A stretch of 64,000 bases of DNA from Beroe forskalii (Eukaryota; Ctenophora; Nuda; Beroida; Beroidae): contig WFMF01000494.1 in the NCBI GenBank assembly GCA_011033025.1, positions 1 through 64,000 of the forward strand. The letters run 5' to 3'. The translations under genes and the position numbers were made by a program. Every line of letters starts with the position of its first letter. Positions within the stretch are counted from its first letter, which is position 1. The notes beneath the pieces are model-generated. The model was not told the DNA's origin, did not search any database, and saw only the letters and a program-made list of their open reading frames with translations. This document shows positions 1 through 46,500 of the stretch, piece after piece.

Positions 1-956
1 TTTGTAAACAGTGGTGGCTGCTTCCACATAATATTGGAGAGGCGTGTCTGATGACTGATTTTATCCATAAACCAAACTACAGAAGTACTGAGATTTGTGG
101 CAAGTTTGAGACATTTACCAAATTCTCAGATTCGTATTCCACGATGCAAGCGCGTCCTTGTACCTAGAGCTTTCTATATAGATTTTGATCCCTCATTTGG
201 TATCTAAACTTTATGGTAAGGAAAGTTTTACTAACGCACGTATCATCTTTGACGACGCCTCCGAGCATTTCTCGTTCCATATTACTGTATTATTGCGTAA
301 TGATAGTATATGACGGTGTGAGTACAGAACACACCCTCATTACTTTGTTCTTTGTTTACTGCTGTGAGAATTGGTGATGTGTGCAAGTGTGCACAGACCG
401 TAATGAGGAGATGTGATGTCACCAATACACCACAGTAAACCCTGAAAATGACGTCACTCTTTAAACACACCACTAATTGAAGAATAGAGTGTAATCTGCA
501 GACTAAAACACGCCCTGTATTGTCTTCGTTTTAACTGGAATAAGCCTTAATTATCCTGGATTTAATGGCCACAATGGACTTCGCATTGCATCTTGAGGTT
601 CTTTTGTTGCAGAGGCTTGCAGGAGACGATTGATACTAATTATAGCCATTATGTACTAATTACCTTAACAGCTGGGAGGGAGGGGCAAGTTGTGTTTTTC
701 AGATTACAAGATCAGTGGGAATTGATTCAAAACTAATATCAAATGGAGAAATTCAGATGGTTATCCAAAAAATTCCAATATGAATTGGAAAAATTTCAAA
801 ATTTCTATTGGAAAACTTGGCGGCTTCATCAGGGATGTTAAAGCTCAAAATTTAGTCCAATCAGGGCGCGAGTTGGCGGGCAGTTCGGGCACTGATTGGT
901 TAGTGTGAAAAGAAGCTGTTGGTAATAGACCTGTTGATGCTGAACATGTGTTTCAG
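1..956. other. Non-coding DNA upstream of the first carboxylase exon copy
   Basis: I see no exon here. The stretch is AT-rich without long open frames, and it ends in a normal acceptor (tgtttcag) in front of the first carboxylase exon copy at 957. It is most likely the upstream intron of the acetyl-CoA carboxylase gene, whose earlier exons would lie left of the window. Confidence 0.5.
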
Positions 957-3770
957 GTGACGTGTCGGAGTGTGGGGATTGGTTCCTACCTGGTGCGCCT
1001 GGGACCGAAGGGCATACGGGGAGAAAATCCCTTTATAATGCTGGGCCTTTGGGGACCGCTAAATTACTCGGGCCCACAGGTTGGGGTTAAAGTGTGCTTT
1101 TAAGCTCAACCTGGTACTCAATTTACAGGGTTTTTAAAGTGTGCTTTACGAGCTCCTGGTCCCCCCGGTCGACAGGTTAGTGTGATGTGTGCTTTTACGT
1201 AACTCAACATGGTCCCTTTAGTCGCCCCTTGGGGTGATTTTGGGTTTACGTATCAATATGGTCCTTGGTCGACAGGTTGGGGTGGTGTGTGCTTTTCCCT
1301 AGCTCAACATGGTCCTCGGGCCGACAAAGGGTTGGGGTGGGGGTGGTGCTTTACGTAGCTCAACATGGGTCCTCGGCCGACAGGTTAGTGTGATGTGTGC
1401 TTTTTCGTAACCCCAAAATGGTCCTCGGCCGACAGGGTTGGGGTGGTGTGTGCTTTAAAATAACAGGTCCTCGGCCCAAAACAGGTTGGTGTGTGTGTTT
1501 TCGTACCCTCAACATGATTCCTCGGCAAACGAGTTAGTGTGATGTGCTTTACGTAGCTCAACATGGTCCTCGGCCGACAGGTTGGTGTGATGTGTGCTTT
1601 ACGTAGTATCAGTACAACCTTCTCATACCGGAGATAAAGCTAGTCTCCGAAGTCCGAAACCGTGCGCTGAGCATTCTGCATTCTGTGGTAACGTAATGAT
1701 AACGTGTAGAGATGCAACTTCACTTTCAGAGTTGTGTTGTGTTATTAGTTGCAACCTTTGGAAACTAATAACAACTCTCAACTGATAAGTTAAGAGCTAT
1801 ACAAACTGTCTCAACAGCTCGGTGGTTATGAGAACATGATTGGGAGGGTATTAATTCGTTGAAATGAACATGAAATGTCTCCTTGAGACACTGAGACACT
1901 CCACTCCTCAGGTGTATGCCAGCAACACACAGCTTGGCGGTACTCAGATCATGTTCAATAACGGCGTGTCCCACAACACCGTCAAGGACGACTTCAGTGG
2001 GGTTCTGGGAATCCTGAAGTGGCTGTCTTACGTTCCCAAGTTTAAAGGAGCTGGCCTCCCCATCGCACCCTCTATGACCCTTTCAAAAAGGTTTTTTGGT
2101 TTTTGCCCCCTTCCATAAACCCCCGAAAATGGTGGGAGGGGCCCTGTGGACGGGGGTGGCCGGGGGAGGGTTTTTTGACCAAAAGGGGAGCTGGGTGGGG
2201 TGCCCCCAAAAAACTGGGCTAAACTGTGGTGGGAAAAAGGGCCCCCCTTCGGGATTTTTCCCCCTGGGGTGATCTGCGTTGAGACCTTAGGGCAGTTGAA
2301 AATGCAGGGCCCGGAGTCCCGCAAACCCGGACAGAGACCAAAAAATAAAAACCCCAGGCGGGCCCGGTGGGTACCCCGTTTTCCGCCCCAAAACTGCGCA
2401 AGCAATCAGAGACTTCAACCGGGGGGGGCCCCCCTCATATTCCTTCTTTTGGGAGGGGTTTTTTGGAGGGGAGAGGTGAGTTGGGCCCGAGCCGGGGGGC
2501 AGCTGGTCATTGTTTCCATAGCTAACTGATAGTTTACTAGAGGGCAACCGAAATAGTAGTCACCAATGGTGAGGTTATAGAGCTTTTATAGTTTTATTTA
2601 CCTATTGTATTTTAGTATCGTTTTTTAAACTGCTCACTGTCCTTTTCTCTTCCCCCTCCATGGTCCCTCTTCACTCTTCCCTCCCCCAATGTCCCTCTTC
2701 CCTCCCCCAATGTCCCTCTTCCCTCCCCCAATGTCCCTCTTTCCTTCCCCAATGTCCCTCTTCCCTCAGACAATGTCCCTCTTCCCTCAGACAATGTCCC
2801 TGTTCCCTCAGACAATGTCCCTCTTCACTCTTCCCTCCCACAATGTCCCTCTTCTCTCCCCCAATGTCCCTCTTTCCTCAGACAATGTCCCTCTTTCCTC
2901 AGACAATGTCCCTCTTCCCTCAGAAAATGTCCTTCTTCCCTCCCTCAATGTCCCTCTTCCATCCCCCAATGTCCCTCTTCCCTCAGACAATGTCCCTCTT
3001 CCCTCCCCCAATGTCCTTTTTCCCTCCCCCAATGTCTCTCTTCCCTCAGACAATATCCCTCTTCCCTCCCCAAATGTCCCTCTTCCAAAACCCCCCAAAG
3101 TCCCCTTCCCCCCAGACAAATTTCCCCCTTCCCTCCCTAATTCCCCCTTCCTCAGACAATTCCCTCTTTCCCCCTTAATGTCCCCCTTCCCCCCCCCAAT
3201 GTCCCTTCTTTCCCCCCCAATTCCCTTTTTTTCTCCCCCAAACCCCCTTTCCCCCCCCCAATGTCCCTTTTTCCCCCCCCCAAAACCCCCCCCTCCCAAA
3301 AGTCCCTTTTTTCCCCCCCCCAATGTCCCCCTTCCCTCAGACAATGTCCCCCTTTCCCCTTTAGACATTCGGGGAATCCCGAATACAGGTCATTAAATTT
3401 TGAAAAGGCTGGTCAATTTCCCCACCCGGTCTTCATTCATTCCCCATACGGGGGTTTTCGAGGCAGGGGGGGGGGTGGTCTTTGGGTCCCAAGAAACCCA
3501 AACCAAAATCATGGAGATGTATGCTGACAAAGGGTCCAGGTTCGTGATTTTTGGGGGTCTTCCCGCTTTTCAGTTTTCTGTGTGCTTGTGTGGGATTTAG
3601 GGTTTTACTGGGTGGGAGTTAGAGTTCTATTTGGGTAAGATTTGCCATTCTTATTAGCTTTAAATTGAATAGAATTTGAGTTTTTGAAATTAGTTAAGTA
3701 GTTTGAAGGGTTTTAATTGCTTGGCGTAGGTTTAATGCAGCAATGTTTATCAACTATGAAGGGTCGACAT
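881..3770 (+). other. Damaged first copy of acetyl-CoA carboxylase exons A-C and their introns
   Basis: This block repeats 4057-7080. Exon A begins at 957, exon B at 1912 and the exon C equivalent lies near 3364-3539; the 50-bp and CT-rich minisatellites recur at about 1090-1600 and 2660-3360. The first part of each stretch matches the clean copy almost perfectly (exon B from 1912 to about 2076). It then breaks down into runs of extra c, g, a and t, many indels and homopolymer errors, as at 1000-1550, 2077-2480, 3100-3540 and 3880-4040. Decay that switches on and off within an exon and favours homopolymers looks like low-quality read ends rather than mutation. I therefore read it as an unmerged allele or assembly artefact, not a second gene. 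Confidence 0.75.
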
Positions 3771-4129
3771 TTGTCTGTTCCAAAATACAGCTTTATGCTG
3801 AACGTATTTTGGTCTTATTGCACTTTTTGACTTCTTTATCTTTCCCTATGTTCTGAATCGGGGGTATCAGTGAGTAAGTGCCAAAACCTTATCCCCACAT
3901 TGGTGGTCTGCCCAAAAATTTACAATCGGGTTTCTCACATTCCCTTCTCCCCAGAAAATTTTTTGGGAAAAAGGGGGTGGGTGTTCCCCAAGGTCAAATT
4001 TTGGTTTGAATTTTCAACTTTTAAAAATTTCCATTTGATGTTAAAGTTTCAAAAAGTTCGGGCACTGATTGGTTAGTGTGAAAAGAAGCTGTTGGTAATA
4101 GACCTGTTGATGCTGAACATGTGTTTCAG

Positions 4130-7100
4130 GTGACGTGTCGGAGTGTGGGGATTGGTTCCTACCTGGTGCGCCTGGGACAGCGAGTCATACAGGTGGAGAA
4201 CTCCTTCATAGTGCTGACTGGGCATAGCGCGCTCAACATGGTCCTCGGCCGACAGGTTAGTGTGATGTGTGCTTTACGTAGCTCAACATGGTACTCGGCC
4301 GACAGGTTAGTGTGGTGTGTGCTTTACGTAGCTCAACATGGTCCTCGGTCGACAGGTTAGTGTGATGTGTGCTTTACGTAGCTCAACATGGTCCTCGGTC
4401 GACAGGTTAGTGTGATGTGTGCTTTACGTAGCTCAATATGGTCCTTGGTCGACAGGTTAGTGTGGTGTGTGCTTTACGTAGCTCAACATGGTCCTCGGCC
4501 GACAGGTTAGTGTGGTGTGTGCTTTACGTAGCTCAACATGGTCCTCGGCCGACAGGTTAGTGTGGTGTGTGCTTTACGTAGCTCAACATGGTCCTCGGCC
4601 GACAGGTTAGTGTGGTGTGCTCAACATGGTACTCGGCCGACAGGTTAGTGTGATGTGTGCTTTACGTAGCTCAACATGGTCCTCGGCCGACAGGTTAGTG
4701 TGGTGTGTGCTTTACGTAGCTCAACATGGTCCTCGGCCGACAGGTTAGTGTGATGTGTGCTTTACGTAGTATCAGTACAACCTTCTCATACCGGAGATGA
4801 AGCTAGTCTCCGAAACCGTGCGCTGAGCATTCTGCATTCTGTGATAAACTAATGATTAGTAAGTGTAGAGAATAGAGATGCTACTTCACTTTCAGAGTTG
4901 TGTTGTGTTATTAGTTGAAACTTTTGGAAACTAATAACAACTCTCAACTTATAACCTGATAAGAGCTGTACGAAATGTCACAACAGCTCAGGGGTAATGA
5001 GCACATAATTGGGAGGGTATTAATTCGTTGAAATGAACATGAAATGTCTCCTTGAGACACTGAGACACTCCACTCCTCAGGTGTATGCCAGCAACACACA
5101 GCTTGGCGGTACTCAGATCATGTTCAATAACGGCGTGTCCCACAACACCGTCAAGGACGACTTCAGCGGGGTTCTGGGCATCCTGAAGTGGCTGTCCTAC
5201 GTTCCCAAGTTTAAAGGAGCTGGCCTCCCTATCGCACCCTCTACTGACCCTTTCAACAGAGTCATTGAGTTCATGCCCACTTCCACGCCGTACGACCCCA
5301 GACACATGGTGGGAGGGACCACTGTGGACGGAGAGTGGCTGGGCGGCTTCTTTGACAAGGGTAGCTGGGTGGAGTGCCTCAATAACTGGGCTAAGACTGT
5401 GGTGACGGGCCGGGCTCGTCTCGGTGGTATTCCCATGGGAGTGATCTGCGTTGAGACGCGGGCAGTGGAGTGCGAGGAGCCCGCAGATCCCGCAAACCTG
5501 GACACGGAAACCAAGATAACCGCGCAGGCGGGCCAGGTGTGGTACCCTGACTCCGCCTACAAGACTGCGCAAGCAATCAGAGACTTCAACCGGGAGGAGC
5601 TGCCCCTCATCATATTCGCTAACTGGCGGGGTTTCAGTGGAGGCATGAGAGGTGAGTTAGCCGGAGCAGGGGGTGTCTTCAGCTGATCATTGTATTGCTT
5701 ATAGCTAGCTGATAGTTTACTAGAGGGGAATAGCAAGATAGTAGTCACCAATGGTGAGGTTATAGAGCTTTTATTTATCTATTACATTTTCGTATCGTTT
5801 TTGAAACTGCTCACTGCCCCTTTCTTTTCCTCCCCCAATGTCCCTCTTCTCTTCCCTGCCCCAATGTCCCTCTTCCCTCAGACAATGTCCCTCTTCCCTC
5901 CCCCAATGTCCCTCTTCCTCCCCTAATGTCCCTTTTCCCTCAGACAATGTCCCTCTTCCCACAGACAATGCCCCTCTTCCCTCCCCCAATGTCCCTCTTC
6001 CCTCAGACAATGTCCCTCTTCCCTCCCCAAATGTCCCTCTTCCCTCCCCTAATGTCCCTCTTCCCTCCCCCAATGTCCCTCTTCCCACAGACAATGTCCC
6101 TCTTCCCTCTCCTAATGTCCCTCTTCCCTTCCCCAATGTCCCTCTTCCCTCAGACAATGTCCCTCTTCCCTCCCCCAATGTCCCTTCCCTCCCCCCTCCC
6201 CCCCAATGTCCCTCTTCCCTCCCAATATCCATGTCCCTCTCTGTCCCATCCCTCCCCCAATGTCCCTCTTCCCTCAGACAATGTCCCTCTTCCCTCCCCT
6301 AATGTCCCTCTTCCCTCCCCCAATGTCCCTCTTCCCACAGACAATGTCCCTCTTCCCTCCCCTAATGTCCCTCTTCCCTCCCCCAATGTCCCTCTTCCCT
6401 CCCCCAATGTCCCTCTTCCCTCCCCCAATGTCCCTCTTCCCTCCCCCAATGTCCCTCTTCCCTCAGACAATGTCCCTCTTCCATCCCCCAATGTCCCTCT
6501 TCCCTCCCCCAATTTCCCTCTTCCCTCCCCCAATGTCCCTCTTCCCTCAGACAATGTCCCTCTTCCCTCCCCTAATGTCCCTCTTCCCTCAGACAATGTC
6601 CATCTTCCCTCCCCCAATGTCCTTCTTCCCTCAGCCTATGTCCCTCTTCCCTCCCCAATGTCCCTCTTCCCTCCCCTATGTCCCTCTTCCTTCAGACATG
6701 TACGGTGAGATCCTGAAGTACGGGTCGTACATTGTGGACGGGCTGGTCGAGTACAAGCACCCGGTCTTCATCTACATTCCCCCATACGGGGAATTGCGAG
6801 GCGGGGCGTGGGTGGTCGTGGATCCCAAGATCAATCCTGAAGTCATGGAGATGTATGCTGACAGGGACTCCAGGTTCGCCGGATTTGGGGGTCTTCCCGC
6901 TTTTCAGTTTTCTGTGTGGGATTTAGGGTCTTCCTGGGTGGTAGTTAGAGTTCTATTTGGGTGAGATTTGCCGAAAAGAATTTGAGTTTTTAAATTTGAA
7001 TAGGGTTTGAAGGTTTGAAATTAGTTCCCTCTTTCCCCAGACAATGTCCCAACGTAGGTTCAATGCAGAAACTGTCTATAAGAAACTTGTAGATTTCCTC

Positions 7101-10100
7101 AGAAAATTTAAGAAACTTAGCCTAGAATTTCCTGCACCAAGAAACTTCACTGATTTAAAATTAAGAAATTAAGAAACTTTCTAGCCTAGAATTTGAAATT
7201 TGTATAAAATCCTATTGCAACTGAAACTTTAATCCCTTTTATCCAGTGGGGTAGAGCCCACAGACACTTTTGCTTTTTGATTGTGAACATCTGGTCGCAC
7301 AAGCTTAGTACTTGTATTGAAATCCCCATAATACAGTATTACACTGATATGGGGATAATGAGATCATTATGGAATAGAAATTTAAAAATGGAATCTTCCA
7401 TGACAGGTTTAAACCAGGTACTCATGATTTGATGTAAAGCACAAAACAGAAATTTATGAAATTGTTGTTGGGACAGGACACCTTTACAGTCTATCTATTT
7501 CCAAAAGTTCAGCACTAAGCTCGGCTAGGTAACGATTGAAGTATTATCTAAATTTCAAAAAATCTTTTTTTGAAATTTGTTATATTTTGAAGCACAAATC
7601 TTTTGGCGTAGGATTAAGATTCCATATCAACATACATATTAAGATATTACAGTTGCAAAATACTTTAACTCATAGGTACTACATGAATTTCGAAAAATTA
7701 AGAAAGTGTTTAAAATTGAAATAAGTACTCTAGCCTAAAAATTTGTGTTCAATGATTGCAACTGTTTTCTAATCGGCCAATTTTAGAATACTTTATTTAT
7801 GGGCTTTCAGTCTACCCCCACTACTGAAGCTTTTTTTGCGTGTAGAATCGTTGGAAATTTGACAATGGAACATTTTTTCCCATTATAAACACAAACGGTG
7901 ATTAAATATTCATATGCAATTCGGTATGCAGATCCAGATTTTTCGGTTTATGGTTAACAAACCGCACAAACTTGAAGAAACATAATTTTGACAGGAACTA
8001 TCTTACAGTTCCATATAAACATTCCAAAAATAAGGGATAAGCTCGGCTATCAATCTTTATAGGATTTAGATTTCAATCTAAGTTTAAAAACGAACTTGCT
8101 GGAAGAAGTTTGATGTCATCCCTTTTGGTTACAATTGCACAATATTTTAATATCACTACATGCTTATGTACCCATTCTTATGATTAAAAAATAGAAAGGC
8201 CTGAAATTTTTCAAAAATCATAGTATTAATTGGATTATTGTGAGTAACTGCAATATGGGGTGGGTGGTATCTCTGAAATTTGGCTAAATGCACTTTCTCA
8301 CCATATATGTCTGTGCACTTACTCACTGATATCCCCCGACTGAATAGCCATCTTATTCAAGTCTATTCTCGCTAGTTCTAATGGTCCTGCAGCACAAACA
8401 CGCAATAATGTCATGGAATGCTGCACTGTGCTGCAAATTATACCCAATCAAATTAACATATTCGGTTAGTCGATCTTTATTACATCACCGCGGTATAACA
8501 CAAGGTGGTGTGTTACACTGCACAGTATAGAGTAGATATAGTATAAACTGATTACTGAACTTCGTTTAGGATAACGATTACTTATGCAAAGTTTCAATGG
8601 ATAATGATTGTTTACACAATGCCTGGTCAATTTCAGTCTGATCAATTAATAACTTGACAAACTACCCTCGGTAATGATCAATTACTCGCCACTCGGCAAT
8701 ATTAAATTACTCAGAAACCCAGAAACATGAGTTGATCGAATCACTACATCTTTGTACTGGGTTTTCTAGATTAAATATAATACGTGTTTTGATACGATGA
8801 TAAGGTACAAGTGAGAACGGCAAGCGGCACATTTAGAGCAGTGGTTAATTGACAGTCAGACAGTGCCGTGCTACACATTCCATTCGTGATTCGCTCTTCC
8901 CTTGTGAAGCGGTGTAGAGTGTAAAGATATCTACTAAACCATAACCCCTATAATAACATAATAGCAGGATCTAGAGGGGTCTAGTTTCATGACCAGGCGC
9001 ATCTTCTGATGTGCACTTTACCTTAACCTATCTTCCTTACCGTGTAGAATGTGTCAGGCTTAAATCAAACTCGCAAAGTTTTTCCAGTATGTAATAAAGT
9101 AAACTCTCAAAGTAACATGAAAATTACACACTGTAAAGATTAGGCATGAGAACCAGGGTTGGTATTGTTGAGTGTAACCCCCCTTTGATTTCAGGGGTGG
9201 TATTGAAAAATATAAACCCCCATTTGACTTCAGTGTTGGTATTGTTGAGTGTAACCCCCCTTTGATTTCAGGGGTGGTATTGTTAAGTGTGACCTCCCTT
9301 TGATTTCAGGGGTGGTATTGTTAAGTGTAACCCCTTTGATTTCAGGGGTGGTATTGTTGAGTGTAACCCCCCTTTGATTTCAGAGGTGGTATTGTTGAGT
9401 GTAACCCCCCTTTGATTTCAGGGGTGGTATTGTTGAGTGTAACCCCCCTTTGATTTCAGGGGTGGTATTGTTGAGTGTAACCCCCGTTTGATTTCAGGGG
9501 TGGTATTGTTGAGTGTAACCCCCCTTTGATTTCAGGGGTGGTATTGTTGAGTGTAACCCCCCTTTGATTTCAGGGGTGGTATTGTTGAGTGTAACCCCCT
9601 TTGATTTCAGGGTGGTATTGTTGAGTGTAACCCCCTTTGATTTCAGGGGTGGTATTGTTCTTGATTTCAGGGGTGGTATTGTTGAGTGTAACCCCCCTTT
9701 GATTTCAGGGGTGGTATTGTTGAGTGTAACCCCCTTTGATTTCAGGGGTGGTATTGTTGAGTGTAACCCCCCTTTGATTTCAGGGGTGGTATTGTTGAGT
9801 GTAACCCCCCTTTGATTTCAGGGGTGGTATTGTTGAGTGTAACCCCCTTTGATTTCAGGGGTGGTATTGTTGAATGTAACCTCCCTTTGACTCCAGGGGT
9901 GGTATTGTTGAGCCGGAAGCTACGGTGTCAGTGCAGTTTAAGCACAAAGACTTGGTGAAAGCAATGAAGAGGATAGATCCCCAATACAGCGACTTGCAAT
10001 CCAAAGTGGAGGGCGAGGATCTCAACCAGGAGGATATGAGGAAATGTGTGGCGGAACTGAGGAATAGGGAGGCTTACCTCAAACCTGCTTATCATGTCGT

Positions 10101-13100
10101 GAGTCAAGCTTAATCCAGAATTCAATGTTGAATAATTTCACTCCGTTGATTAAAGTTTCTCTAACCATATCTCCTTCCGTTAACTGAACCCCTTTCTCGC
10201 AGGTATCCACAACGTTTGCTGACCTACACGACACGCCCCAACGAATGATGGCTAAGGGAGTCATCCACGACATCCTCGATTGGAGGACTGCTCGGGAGTT
10301 CTTCTATTGGAAAGTGAGGAGGAAAATATCTGAAAGTCAAGTGGAGCAGGAGCTTAAGGTGGCGAACAAGTGAGTTTCGGATGTTGAGATTCAGAACAGA
10401 TTGTAGAAGTTGTTCATTGCTCAGGTTTTCAGTTATTACCAAGTATCTGTGGGCGAGTTTTTGTAAATGAATTTCCAAATTACCTCTTATATTTATTTCG
10501 CTGCTGCATTCCCAGTTGAGGCTCTGTCAAGGCAATTGAGGGATAGACATCGTCTGATTCTCTCACATCGTCAAGCTTGCTATGCCAACTCAATAGTATA
10601 TTAAACCACTCACGCCACTCCATATCACTAGAAACATGCCACTCATGAATAGTTGATGTCATGTGCTGATGGTATGGTGCGTGGACCAGGCCAAATGTGT
10701 CGCATTATCACGCCAGATATGTTTAAAATATCAGCGCATCATGCCGGCTGAGTTCGGGCACAATCGTATGGTATTTACGTAGCGCGCAGAGGATTAAAGC
10801 TAATTTTGTTGTTGTGTTGGCGCAAATTGCCAAATTAAATTTATATTAATTTGTCTAAAATATTGATCGAATTTAATCGAGTCCATAAGGGACGTCCGCA
10901 ATGAGGATTGAGGGGGACTCTGGCTAATGCGGACATTGGGGAAATGGGAAAATACGAACGTCCGCAGTTTACGGAAATTTCACTGGAAAATTGCGAAATC
11001 TCGTGCCCAAAATTGATGACTGAAACGATTTTTATGAAAAATGCGGACGTCCGGGGGTGGTGGAGGGGGGGGGGGTTGGGAGGAGAATAGAATGGCCGAA
11101 ATTTTGCAGACGTCCTTTATGGATGGCCCTAACTGATTTATTGATTTGATAATAAATGCTCAATTGGCAAAAAATACGAAGCAAGGCTGTACAATTTGCA
11201 TCAATTAAAGTACAATAACAATTTAAAAATTTCTCCCTTCTAATGAACCATAGCAAAAGTAGTTCCAAAACCAGAGTAAATAAAATTATGAAAATGAAAG
11301 ATCCCCTCTCAGTCCATATGGGATGAGATTGAATGAAATATCTGAACACGTTGCTCATTGTCTTCTTGATGTTTTCGTGCTGGGTGTAAACTGATGTTAT
11401 AAGAATGTAAGAGTCAACGTTGGGGTGGAAGATTCTGACATCGAACATACTTAGTCTTCTGAAAAGGCCCCCATGCCCCACGAGCAGAGATGTCAAGGCG
11501 AGCTCTCTCTTCGGTGTTCCCTGGAATTCCCTGACAGGAATCGATAGGAATGAACTCTGGCTCGGTCTGTGGCAAACTTCCCTAAAAAACGCAGCATTTG
11601 TGCCTCGAACCATTTTTACGAATTAAAGCGTGGTCTAATGAATTCTTCATTCCACAGATACAAAATGGGGGAATGCTAGGGATTTGTCACCCGTACTTGA
11701 GCCTGAGTGCATCCTGGAACTCTTCTTTGTTCAACACCCATCCAAGGGAACCATTAGGAAGAACAGTAAGCCAAGCCTCGGCACCCTTTTCTTGGGCTAA
11801 GGTAATGGACCTTTTAAACCTGGCATCTGACGAGTCGGATACAATGCCAGAAATCTTACTCAGCGTCTTGACCTCTTTGTCCTTCATGCAGTCCCTGGTC
11901 ACCTTAACCACACCCTCAGTCTGATACCCATCGAGCGTTGACTTCTGGTTTATCATCAGCTTCTTCAGATTGGCCGTGATCCTCTCTGAAGTCCAGAATT
12001 CGAATTCTGATCCTTCAGCTGGATTCGAAATGCCAAGCCCCCTAGTCTCACAGGCAGTGTGAAGAGTGAAAAAGTCTCTTTCTGTGTCAGTAATTTGTCT
12101 CCCAATAATTGCTGGCAGGGCATTTTCTAAGTGAGCATTTTCTGTGGAGCAAAAGCCCTGAGATTGTGGTATCGTCCTCTGAACAAACGTCCATCTCCGG
12201 CACAGTTAAGGCAGTGTACGCTGCTCGGGGTCATCTACCGATTTATGATAACTATTCTATGTCTTCACCCACATTGTCACTTTGTCCTTTCCTGAATTCC
12301 TCCGTTCCCAACACAACACCAAGATGACGCTCCCTCTTTCTTGTAACCTGGATGCCCATAACAACCAAGATGAATTTCTGTTTAGCAGTGTGTTTCTGAA
12401 CACATTCCTCCTTACAATCAAAGCAGTTTTGAGGGCTTTACAATGGGCAGTTTTTTGAGGCCCCTTAATAATATCTATTCTGAAAAAGGAGGGACAAAGG
12501 AGGCTGTATAATTGATCATACATTGAAATTTCATATTTCATATTTGACGAATCAATCATCGGGCATTCCTAATTGCTCTTCTTCAACATATTATCATCTA
12601 TCGTATCACTCCACATCTATAGTCACTCAGCACTCAACTAGTCAACTATTTTCAATAACTTTTCAACCCGACTTTGCTCAGGAAAATGAACCACGGACAG
12701 ATCCAGTCCATGCTACGTCGGTGGTTCGTTGAGTCGAAGGGACCCCTTCAGAACTACCTTTGGGACGACAACAGGGCCGTGGTTGAGTGGCTGGAGGATG
12801 CTGAGGAGAGGCAGTCCATAACGGATAACATCAAGATTATCCAAAGAGAAGCTCTCATCCAGAAGATAGACACGTGAGTTATGTTCAACTATCATCATTC
12901 AATGTAAAAACAGTTTCATAACAATGTATACAATAATATACGCTTAATATCTTACTGGCCGGTTAAGATTGTTCAAAAACAATTGCTTTTCGTCCATAAG
13001 GCCGGTCATAAAAAGGCCAGTTAAAAAGTTTAAAAATATAACAAGATTAAGGCCAATAGGATATACGGTGTAGACGTGAAGTGTCATTGTATCAATTACA

Positions 13101-13617
13101 GATTGTACTATCTTTTTCCTACGTTTTAGGAACTATTTTGCGCGCGTGTTCTAAGACTTTTCTGTGACTTTTCGGAGAAAGGGCGCGCGCAGTGCCCGAA
13201 CAAACAGGGACGCATAGCATGTGACACTGACAATGCTATCTTAAACTTATGAAATCTTGATAAGTCGAAATATATGAATTAATCATGCTAGCATGCATCT
13301 ATACATCTATTATGCATTGATAAAAATAAGATACAATACTGAGTAAGATTTAAACACGAATGCGGTAATGGTTTTGCAGTAGTATAACTATAAATTGTGA
13401 ATATCCTTACTTTATGTTGTTGTATTCGTAGCACACTTAAAATTCTATGATTTTGTCACTTTGCAGGCTTGCCGGAGGCAGTGAGGAAACGTCGCTGGAA
13501 GCCGTTATCGGACTGCTCCAGAAAATGTCGTCTCGGAACCAGGGGGAAGTGCGGAAACTCCTCGACTCGTTCATTCCTCAGGAGATTGAGGACGAAAGGG
13601 AGGAAATAGCTGAGTAG
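4130..13617 (+). CDS. ACC: Acetyl-CoA carboxylase, 3' end (carboxyltransferase domain and C-terminus)
   Basis: Exons: 4130-4255, 5081-5651, 6696-6873, 9897-10098, 10203-10369, 12682-12873 and 13467-13617 (TAG). All junctions are GT-AG, all phases agree, and together they give 528 residues. The enzyme carboxylates acetyl-CoA to malonyl-CoA, the committed step of fatty-acid synthesis. These exons cover the carboxyltransferase part, which moves carboxyl from biotin to acetyl-CoA. Family motifs are plain: [124 protein letters not shown], and the C-terminal [12 protein letters not shown]. Biotin carboxylase and biotin-carrier exons would lie left of the window. Order and spacing match animal ACC. 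Three introns carry junction-derived minisatellites, listed separately. Confidence 0.95.
4231..4768 (+). repeat. 50-bp minisatellite made of a repeated 5' splice site
   Basis: Eleven tandem units of 50 bp (unit 8, 4581-4618, is shortened to 38 bp). Unit 1 contains the real end of exon A: 24 nt encoding LNMVLGRQ, then the donor gttagtg at 4256. Every later unit repeats those 24 exon-type nucleotides, the donor and about 25 nt of intron start. Units differ at only a few sites (gtcctcggcc, gtactcggcc, gtcctcggtc; tgtgatg or tgtggtg). Each unit ends in ctttacgtag, a passable acceptor just before the next 24-nt block. A degraded version of the array lies at about 1090-1600. Confidence 0.95.
5826..6690 (+). 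repeat. 21-bp CT-rich minisatellite ending at the exon C acceptor
   Basis: About 40 tandem units with a 21-nt period fill most of the intron between exons B and C. Two unit types alternate: one ends cctcccccaatg and one ends cctcagacaatg. The second type strongly resembles the real exon C acceptor (cttccttcag then acatgtac at 6696). The array therefore presents many polypyrimidine-CAG decoys. Because 21 is a multiple of 3, frames stay open for long stretches, and one frame (from about 6206) runs in frame into exon C. A shorter, damaged version lies at 2660-3360. Confidence 0.95.
7081..9150. other. Intron C-D, unique part
   Basis: This is the AT-rich interior of the 3-kb intron between exons C and D of the carboxylase gene. 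I found no open frame, RNA gene or element that I can name. It runs from the end of homology with the damaged copy to the start of the 38-bp array. Confidence 0.6.
9155..9912 (+). repeat. 38-bp minisatellite made of a repeated 3' splice site and exon start
   Basis: About 20 tandem units of 36-38 bp. Each has tttgatttcag, then ggggtggtattgttgag, then tgtaacccccc. The last unit (tttgactccag then ggggtggtattgttgag, exon from 9897) is the real acceptor and the first 16 nt of exon D. There the same bases encode the end of an Arg codon and GGIVE, which matches the family position before PEATVSVQF. The array is therefore built from an acceptor plus exon start. Period length varies with the number of C residues, and one unit near 9650 is internally shortened. 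Confidence 0.95.
10370..10984. other. Intron E-F, unique part
   Basis: Intronic DNA after the exon E donor (aacaa then gtgagt). Nothing coding was recognised. The repeated block that recurs at 21735 begins near its right end. Confidence 0.5.
11330..12470 (-). mobile_element. Decayed retroelement fragment inside ACC intron E-F, copy 1
   Basis: Minus-strand frames read [20 protein letters not shown] followed by [15 protein letters not shown], and further on [15 protein letters not shown] know this pattern from the region downstream of the reverse transcriptase in widespread animal retroelement proteins: an AWLTALP-type segment, a Cys/His segment, then a DVRVFNP segment. No reverse transcriptase core was found, so this is a partial, broken copy, probably of non-LTR type. 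The class is an inference from remembered family patterns. Confidence 0.55.
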
Positions 13618-14950
13618 ATGATAAATATTACTCATACTCCTTGACACCATGAGCTTGAATATATTGAAATTCGTGAATTTTATATCCTATTTTTGGTGCT
13701 ATGAATTGACTAAAAACCTGACAGACTGGTGCACGGCGGACCCGTCGGGCGTTCGGTTCGCCGCGTACTTCATTCCTTAGTCCGCCAGGTTTTAGCCATA
13801 AACTTATGATTATTTCTTGCGACACGCTCTGGTCGAGGAATTTTCTTTATGATAAACTTTTTTTTGAGTTTTTTTGACTTAACCAACGTGCGTAGCAACA
13901 GGTCTTAATGTACTGACTAATAATATCGATTTTAACCTCAACTATTGACTTGAAAATATGCTGAATTTATGTCATCACATTTTGACTGTGGTTGAAGTAT
14001 CAGCTTTGTTTCTCCAAGCTAATCTAGTTAAATAGACTGTTCATAAGCAATTTTTGGTCAGTTTTTTAATGCATTTGCTACATTCTAAAATAACATTGTC
14101 AGTGTGAATTGGCTACTTGAAGTTGATGAATGTCTCGCGGCTCGCAATATGACCCGAAAACACCCATCTAACCATTGATTTAATTACATATGTGAAGGAT
14201 CCCATATTCCATATAAATTTCTCCAGATTACCTATTAGTATTGTAACTTTATAATAGATCAATTCTGGGCAATTATTGTACGGTGCTTAAATCATGACAT
14301 TATAACATGAAAACCTTTTCTACTATTTATTAGACCCCGTCAATTGCCAAGTGAGTTGGTCTAAATGACTAACATAACTGGGGTGTCAGTTTTTGGGCAG
14401 TATCCAAAAATGCCAATTCCAACGTATAAGTGACAACATTGCAGAAATAGATCGTGATTATCAAACTATCAAATATCAAAGATCGTAGATTTCATTTTTG
14501 ATTGTGTTATCTTATATCATAAAACTAGAAATATTTATGTGCAGCGAAATTTGAAGATTTTATTGGAAAATACCTTATTTTCGCACCCCATAAAATTTTG
14601 GTATATGACGTCACCATCTTAGCAAGGTAATATTGAAAAAAATTCCCATATTTTTTAACCCGCGAAATTTCGATCTCCACTTCAATTATTGTCGAAAATG
14701 AATATGTCTCGTTAGGTACCTTAGTCTCTCTTGATAATCTTTTAAGAATTGTAAAACTCAATAACGATATATATTGTAAAATAAGCGAAAAAAATGATTT
14801 TTTATTACATTTAAAAATGATTAGATTTCCAAAATTAGCAAATGAATTTGAGACCACGAAACTTAAAGTATTTCATTTCAGATTTTGAGTGCAATATTAT
14901 TGAATTAAGTTATTGTTTATCAATATGATTTCAGAAGATAAGTTAACTTT
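13618..14950. other. 3' flank of ACC
   Basis: AT-rich DNA after the TAG stop at 13615-13617. I saw no consensus AATAAA close to the stop. Nothing else is recognisable apart from its near-identical repeat at 24620-26010. Confidence 0.5.
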
Positions 14951-15151
14951 AGGGATCGTTCACACATTAATCAATTTTTGGGCATTTTTACCCCCCCCCC
15001 TCCGTAAGTAAACTTAGTTATGGCCAATCCCCCTCTTTGGGCGAATATTACGTGATCATGGCCTAACCCCCCCCTTATTTTTTTTCGAAAATGATGATCA
15101 TTTTCTAAACATATTGATTAGATTTATTATAATATGTGAACGACCCCTTAT
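14949..15151. mobile_element. Small terminal-inverted-repeat element with TTA flanks, copy 1
   Basis: The left end is ttagggatcgttcacacatta and the right end is its imperfect inverse, taatatgtgaacgacccctta. The ends are flanked by TTA on both sides. The 197-bp interior is non-coding and has C-runs. A TIR and a 3-bp TTA duplication suit a PIF/Harbinger-type miniature element. The same element sits at the equivalent place in the second block (26009-26212), so it inserted before the two copies parted. A related end occurs near 49214. Confidence 0.65.
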
Positions 15152-15499
15152 CCGTATCTGAAAAGGTTGATACATGATATTGATAGTGATACATATCTAT
15201 TATCTGTGAATGTGATATAAACAATATATTATATAGAAACCTTTGTAATTAGTGTTGTCTTTTGCGTGAAATTTTGATGAATAACGCCACTTTGTAATTT
15301 AAAAGTATTTGCAGTACAATGAGATTGAGAAAACGTATCGCAGGCTTTATTTGAAATTGATCTTATAAAGGATGGAAAAACAGAAAAGAACGATAATACG
15401 GGTATAAATTCAGGTGTCTCTAACTTTTGTAGTGCAATCGTGGCACTTACTTTGGGCAAATACAAAATCTACAATGTACAAAAATATAATGTTAATGTT

Positions 15500-23450: not shown

Positions 23451-23665
23451 TAATATCTATTCTGAGGCCCCCTGACACAGAGGACAAAGGAGGCTGTATG
23501 ATAATTGATCATACATTGAAATTTCATATTTCATATTTGACGAATCAATCATCGGGCATTCCTAATTGCTCTTCTTCAACATATTATCATCTATCGTATC
23601 ACTCCACATCTATAGTCACTCAGCACTCAACTATTTTCAATAACTTCCAACCCGACTTTGCTCAG

Positions 23666-23857
23666 GAAAATGAACCACGGACAGATCCAGTCCATGCTAC
23701 GTCGGTGGTTCGTTGAGTCGAAGGGACCCCTTCAGAACTACCTTTGGGACGACAACAGGGCCGTGGTTGAGTGGCTGGAGGATGCTGAGGAGAGGCAGTC
23801 CATAACGGATAACATCAAGATTATCCAAAGAGAAGCTCTCATCCAGAAGATAGACAC
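23666..23857 (+). CDS. Acetyl-CoA carboxylase exon F, second copy
   Basis: Identical at nucleotide level to 12682-12873, with the same acceptor (gctcag) and donor (gtgagt). It encodes [20 protein letters not shown] and onwards. No upstream carboxylase exons accompany it, so it is a duplicated gene end or the other haplotype's exon. Confidence 0.8.
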
Positions 23858-31399: not shown

Positions 31400-33535
31400 A
31401 TGGTTCAACACCATAACTTTTTAGGACTGGTTGAATGTGGGACAATATGATGATCTAATTCCCATGGAATATCAGTAGTATAGAGGAAGGAAACTTGATA
31501 TTTTTCAAGTTTTAAATCATGTATCATTTACTAGATTATCATTGCCTGCACATAATCTCATAATAATGAAATTGATCTTATTATTAAATATTTCTGTGCA
31601 TATTTGATCAGTCTAAGAAGCAAATATAATTGCATATACATTATCTACTATGACAGATAATTGATATGTAACCCCTCCCAAGTCAGGATAAAATGTCAAA
31701 CAGAGGTCCAGCTTATGGATTGTCAAAAGAAGTTCAAGACAAAATAGGTTATTTCAATTTGAAAGTTTTTTACCTACTTACCTACCAAAGAAAGATTTCT
31801 TTTTAATTCAAATACCTACCATATACAGTATTCATAAAAATAACATTGTAATCACACTTTGTGAGCTGATAATGCCCAAGCTGAGAAAGGGGATTTGTAC
31901 AGTTCTCAAAGGTGTGATGATGTTATTTGGAATAAGGATCACAGATAAGAGCAATTTGAATACAAAATTTTTATGGGACAAAATCATCCATATGCAGCTA
32001 AAATTTGCTCTCATTGAATATGAGTGTTATGAAGCTTGAAGGTTTGTAGGCATTTACATGTAAAAGTGGTGATGCCATACCACAACATACATGGTTAAGG
32101 AAACACCATGGAAAATTTGAGTTGGATGATATATGGGTTCATTACCTCTTGAAGGACGTATGTAGTCACAGCTGAGGCCAAATTATATCCTGGCCAAACA
32201 ACAGCAGATTAAAGATTTAGAGTGCTGGTTCATCAAAATAAATTCTTATTAAAGCTCTTGCATATTATTTCATGATAACCATTTAATGCAGCATACATGG
32301 TTGCTAAAACAAAGCTGGGATGGGAATAATATCAGATTTTGGTAATATTCTTATAGCTCATATCTTATAGCTTACTACTGAATCTCCAGCTTGTTAGTTT
32401 CTGAATTGAATTGAATACAGTACAAATTTCACAGCAAATCATTAATGTACCTTATGCATATTACCATGCCCAATATTGAATTCTAAATTTGGGGCATTGA
32501 TAAAAGATGCAATATCCCAGTACTGTCAAGAGTGGAATTGATACTTTGATAGGTATCAGTAGCACAGTAAGGCAAGACATGAAGCATTAGATATCCTGTA
32601 TGAGTGAACTATCTGCATTGGTAAATAATATCACAATTTTATTTTCAACCATTTTAATGAAGCCGTAAATTGCAGTCAGATATTGTCAATATCTGACTTG
32701 CTTCCTAGTTACCTGCTAATATATTGCCAAATTTAGTGATAGTGTCTTCCATTGCACTGTAGCTGTACAACTACAGTCAACAGTGGTTGGATAAATGTGG
32801 CATCATAAAAGCATCAACACATATCAATAACACCAATAAGTGCATAGTTACGACGTTTTCTCTTGTATTATTCTTATGCCCACCTAATCCCCTGGGGATT
32901 CAGCACATCAACACCTGTAACAAATTTCTTGCTGTAATGTGTACACTCTGTGGCTTTGGTTTGGGTGCTTCACTGAATTTGTAAGATTGCAGACTGAGGC
33001 TATATTGTAGGCTGTGGCTATTGAATGTATTATGTATTGCATTCTTATGTTAAATGTTTCGGTGTCTCCATTTTGATTCATACTTAAACTCTGTTTTAAA
33101 GTGTGTAAAATTATTGCGCAATATTTGAAATTCATCGAAATCCACTTACACCATCCTTTTACTAAAGATGCTCGATGTTGTGTAGTATTACTCATGAGAA
33201 ATCGCATAATGTTGAGATGTTAGAGGAGTATTCAAATATGTGTGTGTATTTAGTGTATTTTGACATGAAATATCTGCACCATTCTCCAGCATATTCTATT
33301 AGGTGTTTATAAATGCCACATAATAATTTGCCGACGGTAATAAGTTGTGCATCACGAAGGGGCTCCAGCCTTATGAAATAGAGTACATACTGTAGAAGTA
33401 AAACTGATCGAAGAGATTTCATATTTCACAACCACGATTGATATACATAGAAGCGTTTTTGTGCTATTTTAACTGGTACTTCCGATTTTTTTGCTATGCT
33501 TTGTCACAATAATTTTTAGGCCATGTCAACTCGAC
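31400..33535. other. AT-rich intergenic DNA upstream of the transgelin-like gene
   Basis: I see no gene. A diverged relative of the 18094-18702 insertion lies at about 32075-32340 (catacatggttaagg .. gtatgtagtcacagctgagg .. catacatggttgctaaaaca). The N-terminal exon of the transgelin-like gene may be hidden here. Confidence 0.4.
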
Positions 33536-33671
33536 AATAATCCCTCTACTTATTACCCCAGATAGAGTCTCAGTACTCAGAAGAGTTAGAAGGGCAGTGT
33601 CTATACCCAATAATCCCCCATTATTAACCCAGATAGAGTCTCAGTACTCCGAAGAGTTGGAAGGTCAATGT
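33536..33671 (+). repeat. Tandem duplication of a 3' splice site and exon start
   Basis: The stretch aataatccc..ttaccccag|atagagtctcagtactc and the following exon bases occur twice with a 71-bp offset (first acceptor before 33562, second before 33633). The copies differ at a few sites. Only the second runs on into the conserved calponin-homology sequence (QCRDWIAAV). The first meets a stop after about 20 codons. Confidence 0.85.
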
Positions 33672-36600
33672 CGGGACTGGATCGCTGCAGTGACGGGGGA
33701 GGGGTTTCCTGATAACGGCACTTTCCACGACGCGCTAAAGGACGGAACTCTGCTTTGCAGGTACAACCACAGCAGGTTGAGGGGTTGTTTGCCTTTTAAC
33801 CGATTAATTTAGTAGTTGAGGGTTTAAACTAAATAACGTGATTCAACGTGTTTAATCAGGTGTGATATTTGAGAGACTTATTTTAAACCGTATTTCGTTA
33901 TGAAATTCACTGGCTACAACTACAATTGCGCTCCTGAAAAGGGAGCACAGTTTCTCAGTTTGTGAGGAGTGTGAGCCTCCGGAAGAATGCCTGTATGCCT
34001 GGGATGCATACCTAATTAAGCACATGGTGACTCGTAGGACAGGAGGGTACTTGAGGTAACTGCGTCTGGTATTCGATATGTGGGAAATACGACAGAACGC
34101 ATGACAAGAATACGCGGTATCTCTTGGCGTGCGCTGATATCTGTTGGTATCTTATTCTAATTCAATAAGAAAGGTCTGTTTATGTTCATCTGCATTCTGC
34201 ACGCCACATTTCAGAAATGCAGCAGCAGTTTTGAACAATGTTCTGGGTGAGCCGAAAAGAAGGTTACAAAAGTAAACCCTTTGGCTGGGTTGGGAATTTT
34301 AGATTGTCATAGGTATTCGAGATAAGTCTAGCTCAAATCATCTAACTTTGAAAGCTTATTGCTTAATTGAAAACATTCGCTCATTGAGGTTTTAGGTAAC
34401 TTTGCCACACATGAAAATTTTACTGGCAATTCCGATGCAGTAGATAGTTGAGTTTTTAAACGCCTACATTGACTTGCTGGCAGAATGTTTATTTTTTAAA
34501 CATTTACAATCCATTCCACTGTCACAAGTCTGTGTAAGTTTTCTCTGCCCCGGTCCTTAGCCCGTGTAGCAACCTGCTAAACGTCACTAGTAACAAGTGT
34601 ACAAGTTACAAGACGTGTAAAACACGCCTAGTCACTAGTTGCAGGTTACATCAAGTGTAGCTCTCAGTGATGTCACTATCATACCTTAGAATGGTGAGTT
34701 GATGACGTCACACTGCCGTATTCTCGAGTGTGTGTGTGACAACTTCCCGTAAAACTGTAACACGTGGAGTGGCAGGGTATTAGCGCCCGGGGCTGAGGTT
34801 GCATGTGGCGAATAGAAGGTTATACGTCATCAAATCACTGCTTGAAAAAACGGTAATTACGTCACTCCAAAAGGCGTATTACTTGTTAGAGTGACTTTTG
34901 GAGCTGCTGATCCTAATAGCGAACTGATGTCTGGGACTGAGCCATGCCGTGTGGTGTCCCGCACAGTTAACAGCTACCTTCTAGTGATGTCATTATCACG
35001 GGTTAGCGTGGACTCTTGATGACGTGGCAGGGTCTGCGGGGTGTGTGATGGTGTGTGGAATGTTGATACACACTGACCAGTGTAGTAGTGGTGTACGATT
35101 AGTAAGTAATACTAACTAAGTAATACTTACTAAGTATCGTGTGCCGTAGGCAGTGTGAAGGTTTAAACTTAAATAATAACGTCTTGCCGCTAATAATATC
35201 AAAGTGGTTACATTATTACAATTTACTGATATAAACAGCTGTAGTAGATAGCAACTAGTTTGTTGGTCTGTCAGTTTGCAGCTACACCTAATTACTGGTT
35301 TATACTGGTTGTAGTTGATGAAAGTTATACGTATGTCAAAAAGGCAACACAGAAGCTAGGGATTCAAATTGCTAAAAAGTCTCTAAACGATATCTTTACC
35401 TCATCTTTACAGCTTAATGTTAGAAATATCTGAACCATGTGTCCATCTCACTTATCACCCTATCACAACGTATCAGAGAGTCTCATCTAATGACGTAATC
35501 TAATGACACACTCTAATGCCTTTTAATGGGCAGGAGGAGGAGGAGGCTGCATTCGCTAGTTGGATTCGAGCCAACAACACATGCGTGGGTGGTGAAGTGC
35601 CTTGAAACAGTTGTGCAGTCTACACTGTGCGGTACTGTGCTCAGCATCAGGTTTCTACTTTTCTAGGAACTGAAAAACTTCTCTGGATTTTAACTTTCCA
35701 TGGTCTGCGAATATTTTCTGCAAATCGCACTGGATATATAAGTACCTACTTTATTTCCACGCACGGAACGCAAGGACTGCAATTTCTGAAATCATTATGT
35801 GCTCCACTCTCAATTTGTTCCACTTCATGAAATTGAAGTACAGCTGTCAGAACTAGCTTCTATCTTTCTATAGTTCATCAGTTTATGTTAAAACTTTAAT
35901 AAGACCACGGTCCATGGCAGTGCATGATCTACAGCAGAGTAGCTGCTTTCTGACACTCCTGTCTCGTAATAATTGGAGAAGTCTGCTTCAAGAATCATGA
36001 CCATACAGGACCATATATTTTTATCTACAAATCACAGTACAGAAGTTCTGCAATCTGATCAATCCTTGTCTTTATAGTTAGCAGGCATGAAATGTATTTT
36101 TCCTATGTTACATGGCCTCGTTTCATGCAGGTATTTGTCTCATTTCTTGGCGGCATGACGCAGACTTGACGCACCTGATTGAGGGAATAACAAAAGTTCA
36201 GTGGTTTTAAACTGGTCTTCAGAAATATTCTGCATCTACTACACACACTCAAGCAAAATGACGTCATACCTTGATCTGGATCATCTACTACATGTCCGAT
36301 TTACACTGAGAATGTGAGAAGCAAATCATTAGATCAACTCATTTAAAAACTTAAAAACATAAAATGACTCTGATTGTCTGATTGTCACAGTTATTGTCAT
36401 TGAAATTAGAGGAATAGTCAATACTTTAATTCAACAGGGTGCATCTCAAATCCAAGAGTCAAAGTATACATCTTACCAAAGGGTTTTTACTTCTGTATAG
36501 AGCAGTAGGTGTACCACCAGCTAAGCACCTATCTTGGAAATTGATGGGTCTATGATTTATTGCCCTCATGTGAGACGCATGTACTGTTTTCTGCACTGTA

Positions 36601-43542: not shown

Positions 43543-46500
43543 ATGTCAAGGAAGTCCAGAGGTTCTATTCACGTGTCCTCTGAAGGGGATATACGGATTG
43601 AAGGTCTCTCCAAAGTTGGGGATAATGGTGAGCCGCGAGCGTAACCTACAGTTAAAAAGAATTACGTCTGCTTGAAGCAACCTTATAATATATTTTCAAG
43701 AATTCTTTAATTCAATTCAACGCTTTAAATTTAATGAAGTCAAATAATGAAACCCGTTTAAAGCCAAATAATGATTAAAGTCCCAATCTATCAGCGGATA
43801 GTGATACGGAAGCCATCATTGATGAAGATGAGGACAGAGAAGAGGGGGAGGTTGTGAGGAGGAATGATAAGACATCAGAGAAAGCAACGTGGAAAGGGGC
43901 TGTTATCAAAGATAAGAGTCTCTGGTTTAAATACAAGTTTGGGAAAGGGGCATACGCACCGGAAATCAGGTATATCTTGTTTTGGGAATGAAATTGAAAT
44001 CAGCTTTACCATATTGAATATCAACTATTTTTGACGAGAGTTTCGTTAGATATGTGATTCTCTATAATTTGGAGTGGGGGAATGTTTTTCAACACAAAAA
44101 GTAAAAACTGCAGTGAATCTCACAATTTCATTACCTCCTTGTACACCTCTGACCTCCCAGGTTTAACCCAGTGGTAGCTATCGGAGCAATTGTCCTGATA
44201 GTTGCCCTCATTGCGTGGTGCATTATCCAGGAGGATGCCCACGTTTTGTTCTCGGAGGCTCGTTTAGCCGTTGCTAATTCCTTCTCTTGGTTCTACACGG
44301 GCGTTGTCGTGAGTTTATATTTCCAATATATGGGCTTGATTAGACACTTTTGGGTAGCTAATAGCTATTAGTGGAGATTTCATGATGATTCGTGCAACAC
44401 AATCACATAGCATGCTTGGGTGGATAGAAAACTTTTAGGCAGTTTCAAAGGACCTCATTTTATTACAGGAGTTTATGCTTGTCTTCGTTATCTGCATCTA
44501 CTTCAGCAAGTATGGATCTATGAAACTAGGTTTGAGAGAGCACAGTTATGTTTTTTCTTGATAGGTATCGTTTCTTTCCTCAGAATAGCTTCTGTTATCA
44601 AAAAAATTTCGAAAATATTTCCCGAAAAATATTTCCGTATGTCCATGAAATGGATAATGTCCTAATAGTTATTTACGTATTTTAAATTACTCTTCATTAT
44701 TTTATCATTTAAGTTAACTGTGTTATTTGTAAACTAATAACACTCCCCCAGGTGCGGATGATGACGAGCCTGAGTTCCCCAGCGGATCCTGGTTCTGTAT
44801 GCTGTTTGCCTGTGGTTTGGGAGTGGGACTCTTTTTCTACGGAGTGGGGGAACCCGTCCTACACTACACTTCTATCAACAGGTACTCAGCAGTATCACGT
44901 GACTACCGACTTATCTCGTGACTAGCTGCTGATCATGACTTGGGGCCTCAATACCTCATTCTTACCTCACACAATCTGTATTCATAATCCAGGTACACAG
45001 CAGACCTTATTCCCATTTTGACGGTATTCCCGCCAGGTACTCAGCAGACCGGTTTATGCGGGATAACGAGTTGGCACAGAGCGCCATGACAGTCACCATC
45101 TTCCACTGGGGTCTCCACGGTTGGGTGGTTTACACCCTCATAGGCATGGCGCTGGCCTTCATTTCATTCAGGTTAGGAGACATCTTGTAGGTGTGGTCGT
45201 TGTGTCGACGGTTTGATGATAATTATATCAACTTAATTTGGCATATCAAAGATTTCAACGTAGTCAGTATTTGCACGTTTCTTCTAAAAACCTACAAACT
45301 CCGCTCAGGAAAGGCTTGCCGATGACGATGAAGTCTTGTTTCTACCCGATGGTTGGAGACAGGATCTATGGCTGGATGGGCAATTTGATAGATATCTTAT
45401 CTCTCATTACCACTGTCTTCGGGGTCTGTACATCCCTTGGTATCGGAACCGTACAACTCAATTCAGGTACACAGATAATTTGTTGATTGTTTATTTTACT
45501 CATTTAATTAAAAGTGTATGGGTGACGTGTATAACAATATTTCCTCATGAAATACTTGATTTCTCTCAACCTGAAGCAACACAAAGCTCTGCCTAATATT
45601 CTGAGTTAAGGAATAGAGTAACTGTTGCTTAGCAACGAAACAATCACTTCTGCTGCGCAGGATTACGGGAAATAGTGCCAAGTTTAGAGAAGACGCTGAC
45701 AGTTCAAGTGGTAATTATCTGGGTTGTCATGGGGATAGCAACGTTCTCTGTCTTGTCAGGAGTTGGCTCGGGTATCAGGAGGATCAGTGAGATATGTTTC
45801 GGGGTGGGGATGTTTCTCCTCATCATGATCTTCATGATGGACGATCCTTGGTAAGTGTACGTTATTCGTGTGTGTCTGCTAAGATTAATAAATCATAGCG
45901 TGGTTAACACATCATGTTATCATGACGTCATCAAAGCCACTGTTTTTGACCGGTATTCATCAAATATGAGCCGTGGTCGTTAACTTATATTTTGGTTATA
46001 AAATTCTTCAAAGTATGCCATTTCTTTTATCCCAGGTTCCTGATGAACCTGATGGTTCAGAGTTTTGGCCATTACCTTCACAACATAATTCTGCTGGGTT
46101 CCCGAACTGACGCATTCGAGCAGCTAAACATAACTTCAAGGGAGGGGGCTTCTCGTGGCAGGTAAGTGCGGTTTTCGAAATAAATTTTTCTACTCCGAGG
46201 TGCATCAAGCTAATACAGAATCTTTAGACTGGCAACCAATTTTTTATACTCATGTCGACCCTAAATAGGCATACAACCCATTCTTCCATGAAATATCACT
46301 TATATGCCAATGCTGAGTGATATGGTATTATCTCCGCAATTCCACACCCTCCCTGAGTAATAAGTAATGGGTATCCCTCGCAGGTTGTATGAGGACGGGG
46401 TGACGGACGGCTCCCCCACCTGGATGGACGGATGGACCGTATTCTACTGGGGCTGGTGGGTCTCTTGGGGACCTTTCGTCGGGATGTTCATTGCCAAGAT

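Follow-up and report, generated by a model that had tools for sequence, protein, structure and literature searches.

Three consecutive introns of an acetyl-CoA carboxylase (ACC) gene each contain a minisatellite that repeats one of the splice junctions of that intron. They lie in contig WFMF01000494.1 (assembly GCA_011033025.1), of which positions 1 to 64,000 of the forward strand were analyzed, hereafter the window. We suggest that the three arrays are, in all likelihood, minisatellites of the kind called "mirages" in amphioxus, where the name stands for tandem repeats at exon-intron borders (excerpts of PMC3087553 and PMC3902484), and that they result from tandem duplication across splice junctions. 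An earlier note, written from the letters alone, had already described a junction-derived minisatellite in each of these introns, with periods of 50, 21 and 38 bp. In its description, intron A-B repeats a donor, intron B-C an acceptor-like unit and intron C-D an acceptor plus the exon start. The exon map and a unit-by-unit reading bear this description out, and Tandem Repeats Finder (TRF) returns the same periods.

The region between 4.1 and 12.9 kb encodes the carboxyltransferase part of an animal-type ACC, in which six exons (A to F) were placed, with GT-AG borders at all the introns between them. The joined exons give a protein of 478 aa matching Pfam Carboxyl_trans, and residues 1-475 align to human ACC2 (E=7.7e-201) with 292/475 identical positions (61.5%, counted on the printed match line). 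This alignment is unbroken at every splice junction, with only small length differences within exons. Scans of the window against Rfam and for tRNA returned no match.

Array 1 begins within exon A. Its 11 units were read singly, ten of them with 50 bp and one with 38 bp, and a full unit joins 25 nt of the exon A end to 25 nt of the intron start (GCTCAACATGGTCCTCGGCCGACAG|GTTAGTGTGATGTGTGCTTTACGTA). The donor CAG|GTTAGT is present in 11/11 units, and that of the first unit, after 4255, is the real one. Array 3 is built on the other border, from the unit TTTGATTTCAG|GGGTGGTATTGTTGAGTGTAACCCCCC, and contains 21 AG sites, which are the real one before 9897 and 20 decoys. The start of exon D follows 20 of the 21 AG sites with at most 3 mismatches, and its first 16 nt, GGGTGGTATTGTTGAG, are found exactly 13 times, the real one counted. 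The unit of the real acceptor reads TTTGACTCCAG|GGGTGGTATTGTTGAG and continues into exon D. Since a full unit includes 25 nt of true exon in array 1 and 16 nt in array 3, the junction itself was copied. This unit structure and these copied junctions are observed directly and form part of the base of the mirage interpretation.

Array 2 is the weakest of the three cases. Its units occur in two intermixed forms, CTCTTCCCTCAG|ACAATGTCC and CTCTTCCCTCCCCCAATGTCC, plus variants, and the array terminates in the real acceptor CTCTTCCTTCAG|ACATGTACG, with the end called by TRF falling 5 nt before the end of the intron. We counted 13 AG acceptor sites, the real one before 6696 and 12 decoys, of which 11/13 read CAG|ACAATG; CAG is absent from most of the approximately 40 units. 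The exon stretch copied is about 8 nt long (ACAATGTCC vs ACATGTACG). When units of the arrays were searched for in the whole window, on both strands and with up to 4 mismatches, 86 of the 87 hits fell in the ACC arrays and in the second assembled copy of this region described below. The remaining one is a single stray copy of the array 2 unit at 7029-7049 (2 mismatches), in intron C-D beyond exon C, and the second copy differs from it at the matching place near 3690.

Table 1. Positions of the ACC exons, the arrays and the related repeats in the window.
Feature	Positions	Strand	Basis or remark
ACC exon A (carboxyltransferase part)	4130..4255	+	Real donor after 4255; contiguous human ACC2 alignment
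ACC exon B	5081..5651	+	Human ACC2 alignment
ACC exon C	6696..6873	+	Human ACC2 alignment
ACC exon D	9897..10098	+	Human ACC2 alignment
ACC exon E	10203..10369	+	Human ACC2 alignment
ACC exon F	12682..12873	+	Human ACC2 alignment; 192/192 identical copy at 23666
Array 1	4231..4769	+	TRF period 50; 11 units of about 50 bp
Array 2	5824..6695	+	TRF 5849-6690, period 21; about 40 units of 21 bp
Array 3	9154..9912	+	TRF period 38; about 20 units of 38 bp with the acceptor and the exon D start
Second, partly noisy copy of 4055-7026, with its own arrays 1 and 2 (1166-1605, 2647-3354)	882..3695	+	
71-bp repeat, 1.9 copies, acceptor plus exon start, calponin/transgelin-like gene	33535..33672	+	TRF; acceptor before 33633
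CAGGTACTCAGCAG, donor of BCCT intron B5-B6	44879..44892	+	Shared-flank test
CAGGTACACAGCAG, internal copy in BCCT intron B5-B6, one mismatch	44990..45003	+	Shared-flank test
CAGGTACTCAGCAG, acceptor of BCCT intron B5-B6	45034..45047	+	Shared-flank test

Such arrays could arise from a short tandem duplication with break points flanking a splice junction, which would copy the junction into the intron, and unequal exchange or slippage would multiply the copies. The duplication would be tolerated, since the copy adjoining the intact exon can still give the right mRNA while the rest lie in the intron. Splicing would then have to take the exon-proximal site, that is, the first of 11 donors in array 1, the last of 13 acceptors in array 2 and the last of 21 acceptors in array 3, and it presumably does so in vivo. 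We joined exons A to E with each alternative site, one decoy at a time. In these single-site joins, the frame stays open with the exon-proximal site of each array and with no other, and a premature stop is brought by 42 of the 42 decoys (10 donors in array 1, 12 acceptors in array 2 and 20 in array 3). Both are observations that also belong to the base of the mirage interpretation. Because every decoy used singly brings a stop, the arrays are unlikely to diversify the ACC protein; the decoys are either ignored in splicing or give mRNA with a premature stop, and mis-spliced molecules of this kind would probably decay.

In array 3, each AG is followed by a G-run that could pair with a C-run in the unit after it, and the last copy is without that C-run. 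Around AG|NN, 18/20 decoys have a predicted openness of 0.02-0.08, vs 0.09-0.17 at the real acceptor. With an 8-nt measure, that acceptor is predicted at 0.002-0.007, above 18-19 of the 20 decoys. Hairpins in array 3 are thus a possible, although weak, extra filter, under which the real site would be more open than most decoys.

The sequence preceding exon A contains a second copy of the same region. Positions 882-3357 repeat 4055-6546 at 81.2%, and the likeness extends to about 3695. Identity varies from 98.5% to about 70% per 200-bp step, being lower in the short last step. Between 2050 and 2480, 97/119 mismatches equal a neighboring base, and 39% of the bases are in runs of at least 4, against 2.8% in the clean copy. 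The segment 882-3695 is low-quality sequence of a second copy, which probably belongs to the other haplotype. Two further segments, 11345-15499 and 22348-26573, are 90% alike, including an exon F identical at 192/192 positions, and probably represent two haplotypes assembled one after the other. The units of the clean arrays differ among themselves by substitutions and indels. Because of this variation, and because the second copy also contains arrays 1 and 2, we take the arrays as real, with lengths and copy numbers that are uncertain: that copy is too noisy for counting units, and array 3 was seen in one assembled copy only.

The relation between arrays and junctions was evaluated with 47 mapped junctions from three genes, namely ACC, a calponin/transgelin-like gene and a BCCT transporter gene, the T3 acceptor of the second being uncertain. 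The 58 TRF rows were hand-merged to 29 loci, of which 27 were used, leaving out the noisy copy's 1166-1605 and 2647-3354. All the P values are post hoc, as the pattern itself had led to the choice of the window. An array end lies at up to 40 nt from a junction of the right type in 5/27 arrays (P=0.023) and in 5/9 in-gene arrays (P=0.0002), at up to 25 nt in 4/27 (P=0.018) and 4/9 (P=0.0006), and at up to 10 nt in 1/27 (P=0.36) and 1/9 (P=0.17). One of the five within 40 nt, at 40072-40153, is merely beside the T2 acceptor, with no visible copying. When the overlap between arrays and junctions was limited to the 9 in-gene arrays, kept mostly out of exons, 3 were found vs 0.52 (P=0.011).

Frequent duplication of junctions may leave the donor and the acceptor of the same intron with shared sequence in register. 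Contiguous in-register matches of 9, 9 and 14 nt were found in 3 of 21 introns, while the maximum among 420 mismatched donor/acceptor pairs was 8. The donor and acceptor of ACC C-D share GACTCCAG|G (9 nt), those of transgelin-like T1-T2 share CTTTGCAG|G (9 nt), and those of BCCT B5-B6 share CAG|GTACTCAGCAG (14 nt), which is centered on AG|GT. The latter is the only one of the 21 introns with AG|GT-centered direct repeats at both ends, and it bears the signature that tandem duplication of an AGGT segment would leave in producing an intron. A shorter relative of this block, CAGGTACACAG, is found at the BCCT B7 donor, so it is not unique to B5-B6. No shared flanks were found in ACC A-B and B-C, whose contiguous matches of 5 and 2 nt fall in the range of the mismatched pairs. 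If any register within 30 nt is accepted and two introns with unplaced cuts (T2-T3 and B15-B16) are added, matches of at least 9 nt are found in 5/23 introns vs 1/506 mismatched pairs; those two were positioned with the repeat in view, and the count we rely on is 3/21. Both were set aside as shared-flank introns: each gap is flanked by exact repeats, but no AG was seen at the matching cut, so that the junctions could not be placed. In T2-T3 the direct repeat has 29 bp (40205-40233 and 41415-41443), and its first copy runs exon T2 straight into T3 sequence. In B15-B16 it has 14 bp, GCTCTCTTGTGGTG, at 48406-48419 (end of exon B15) and 48638-48651 (start of B16). The view of the earlier note that junction duplication recurs in other genes of the window is supported by the two-copy repeat of the calponin/transgelin-like gene at 33535-33672 and by the three AG|GT copies of BCCT B5-B6.

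The names of these two genes come from Pfam matches (CH, Calponin repeat and BCCT), and we take the calponin-type gene to be transgelin-like. The BCCT gene (43543-48957) is intron-rich, with 15 mapped exons plus a 16th inferred and introns of 137-226 bp, and the nearest solved chains to its protein are trimethylamine, choline and glycine-betaine (BetP) transporters. Among the papers listed for BCCT in animals, none hinted at the host. With the sites chosen, its B14-B15 junction loses the frame (sequence read by eye). A 39-bp minisatellite at 40914-41129, about 290 bp upstream of transgelin-like T3, touches no mapped junction. A palindromic repeat block at 49863-50549 is possibly a small inverted-repeat transposon.

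Several results weigh against the mirage interpretation or parts of it. Over the whole window, 3/27 TRF arrays overlap a junction where 1.9 are expected from random placement (P=0.30), with the same outcome by rotation. Junction-centered 40-mers scoring at least 16 are 4/47, vs 8.6% of 1200 random gene positions, and an excess appears only with the positions in the four junction arrays removed from the null (1.6% of 1102). The claim of the earlier note that the arrays are unlikely to be chance is thus only partly borne out: array ends lie close to junctions beyond expectation, the plain overlap is not above chance, and one window is no proof of enrichment. Array 2, with about 8 nt of exon copied, may be a repeat of the pyrimidine tract into which the acceptor was drawn. 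As for the hairpins, the predicted openness of 2/20 array 3 decoys (0.24-0.60) exceeds that of the real site, the 8-nt openness is near zero at all array 3 sites but two decoys (at most 0.022), and in arrays 1 and 2 the real site is no more open than the average decoy. The overlap and 40-mer tests lend something to the view that the arrays are ordinary intronic minisatellites, near exons by chance and with no special link to junctions, as does the presence of other arrays, like that at 40914-41129, away from mapped junctions. This view is nevertheless improbable, considering the true exon inside the units of arrays 1 and 3, the 5/9 in-gene array ends near junctions and the shared donor/acceptor repeats, which exceed all the mismatched pairs. 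We consider even less probable, by a little, that the arrays owe their length or their existence to faulty assembly of a highly heterozygous genome. The second version of these exons, which is noisy in part, and the 90% duplicate block with its identical exon F would be in line with it, but the clean arrays vary from unit to unit, arrays 1 and 2 are present in the second copy as well, and the clean exons align unbroken.

Still lower we place a regulatory role, in which decoys would be used at a set rate and the stop-containing mRNA degraded, tuning the ACC level. Such a role agrees with the stops brought by all 42 decoys, with the donor kept in every array 1 unit and with the 21 AG sites of array 3. 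However, stops in all frames would be expected of repetitive intronic DNA, most array 2 units are without CAG, and the amphioxus Adh and TnC mirages come with no reported aberrant mRNA in the excerpts of PMC3902484. The arrays could instead stem from intron gain by tandem duplication (Rogers model), as intermediates of that process or as relics of it, an explanation that we regard as unlikely but deserving more weight than these alternatives. The BCCT intron B5-B6, with CAGGTACTCAGCAG at both splice sites and an internal copy, and the shared ends of ACC C-D and transgelin-like T1-T2 are in its favor, and the globin paper (PMC3087553, in part) proposes a connection of mirages with new introns. 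On the other side, ACC A-B and B-C lack shared flanks, the repeat units contain true intron, and the similar block at the B7 donor removes the singularity of B5-B6. Since these two ACC introns have no shared flanks and the units contain true intron, the introns are probably older than their arrays. A joint interpretation is somewhat more doubtful than intron gain itself. It supposes that junction-copying minisatellites also exist outside amphioxus, as the active end of an intron-making duplication process, and that the array 3 hairpins would mask their own decoys, leaving the exon-proximal acceptor more open. With the same doubt, its stages may be represented in this one 64-kb window by the ACC arrays, the two-copy transgelin-like repeat and a finished BCCT intron with matching ends. 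The mirage interpretation of the three ACC arrays remains, by our judgment, the one to adopt.

Introns packed with near-perfect copies of their own splice sites provide a natural setting in which to see how the spliceosome chooses among dozens of like sites. Junction arrays also bring to view a route along which tandem duplication may create or remodel introns, of which few cases have been caught in the act. The interest would be greater if it is true that the host is not a cephalochordate. The 61.5% identity of its ACC to the human protein seems low for a chordate, yet it is no proof for or against a cephalochordate host.

The earlier note held that there was no described class of such minisatellites, which is wrong, as the amphioxus mirages show (PMC3087553 and PMC3902484, in part). 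According to excerpts of both papers, these are found at both borders, with unit lengths of 10-160 bp, in Adh3, TnC, the globins BflGb6 and BflGb9, and PGBD5; the second paper adds PGBD5 and cites Adh and TnC. In the same excerpts, the data on Adh3 and the reverse transcription PCR of globins suggest that the mirages leave splicing undisturbed. The part seen of a paper on amphioxus huntingtin (PMC2206037) mentions assembly errors and tandem repeats and not border repeats. No mirage outside amphioxus was found in the open-licence literature, among the matches listed and judged by titles and abstract openings.

Intron gain by tandem AGGT duplication is reviewed in PMC4974935 (in part), with ATP2A1, 24-bp AGGT repeats in fission yeast and the potato RdRp as cases. 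BCCT B5-B6 resembles them in its AG|GT-centered direct repeats, which stand at either end with a further copy in between, whereas the ACC arrays are at one end of seemingly pre-existing introns. The C. elegans minisatellite CeRep25B, over-represented near alternative splicing regions (PMC4039745, in part), is likewise an intronic minisatellite associated with splicing regions; unlike the ACC units, its unit is a 24-base palindrome with splicing motifs and not a copy of its own junction. The human ABCA7 variable number tandem repeat affecting splicing (PMC5954066), compared by its listing alone, shares the condition of intronic tandem repeat. Introner-like elements place the same intron at many unrelated loci; within the window, 86/87 unit hits belong to the ACC arrays (second copy included), and the remaining one lies in the next ACC intron.

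The closest likeness is with the amphioxus mirages, as far as the excerpts describe them. Both systems have minisatellite-like tandem copies across exon-intron borders, with variable unit length, and both borders are copied, ACC having one donor array and two acceptor arrays. Many but not all amphioxus repeats have the AG or GT, and here it is found in 11/11 units of array 1, as 13 AG sites in about 40 units of array 2 and, in array 3, as 21 AG sites. In both systems, some loci also come with difficult assembly and with two haplotypes, here probable ones. The ACC arrays differ in following one another through three successive introns of the same gene, in reaching about 40 units, and in being known from sequence alone. 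They are a new example of the already described mirage kind, and a dense one, with three in a row in a single gene of central metabolism.

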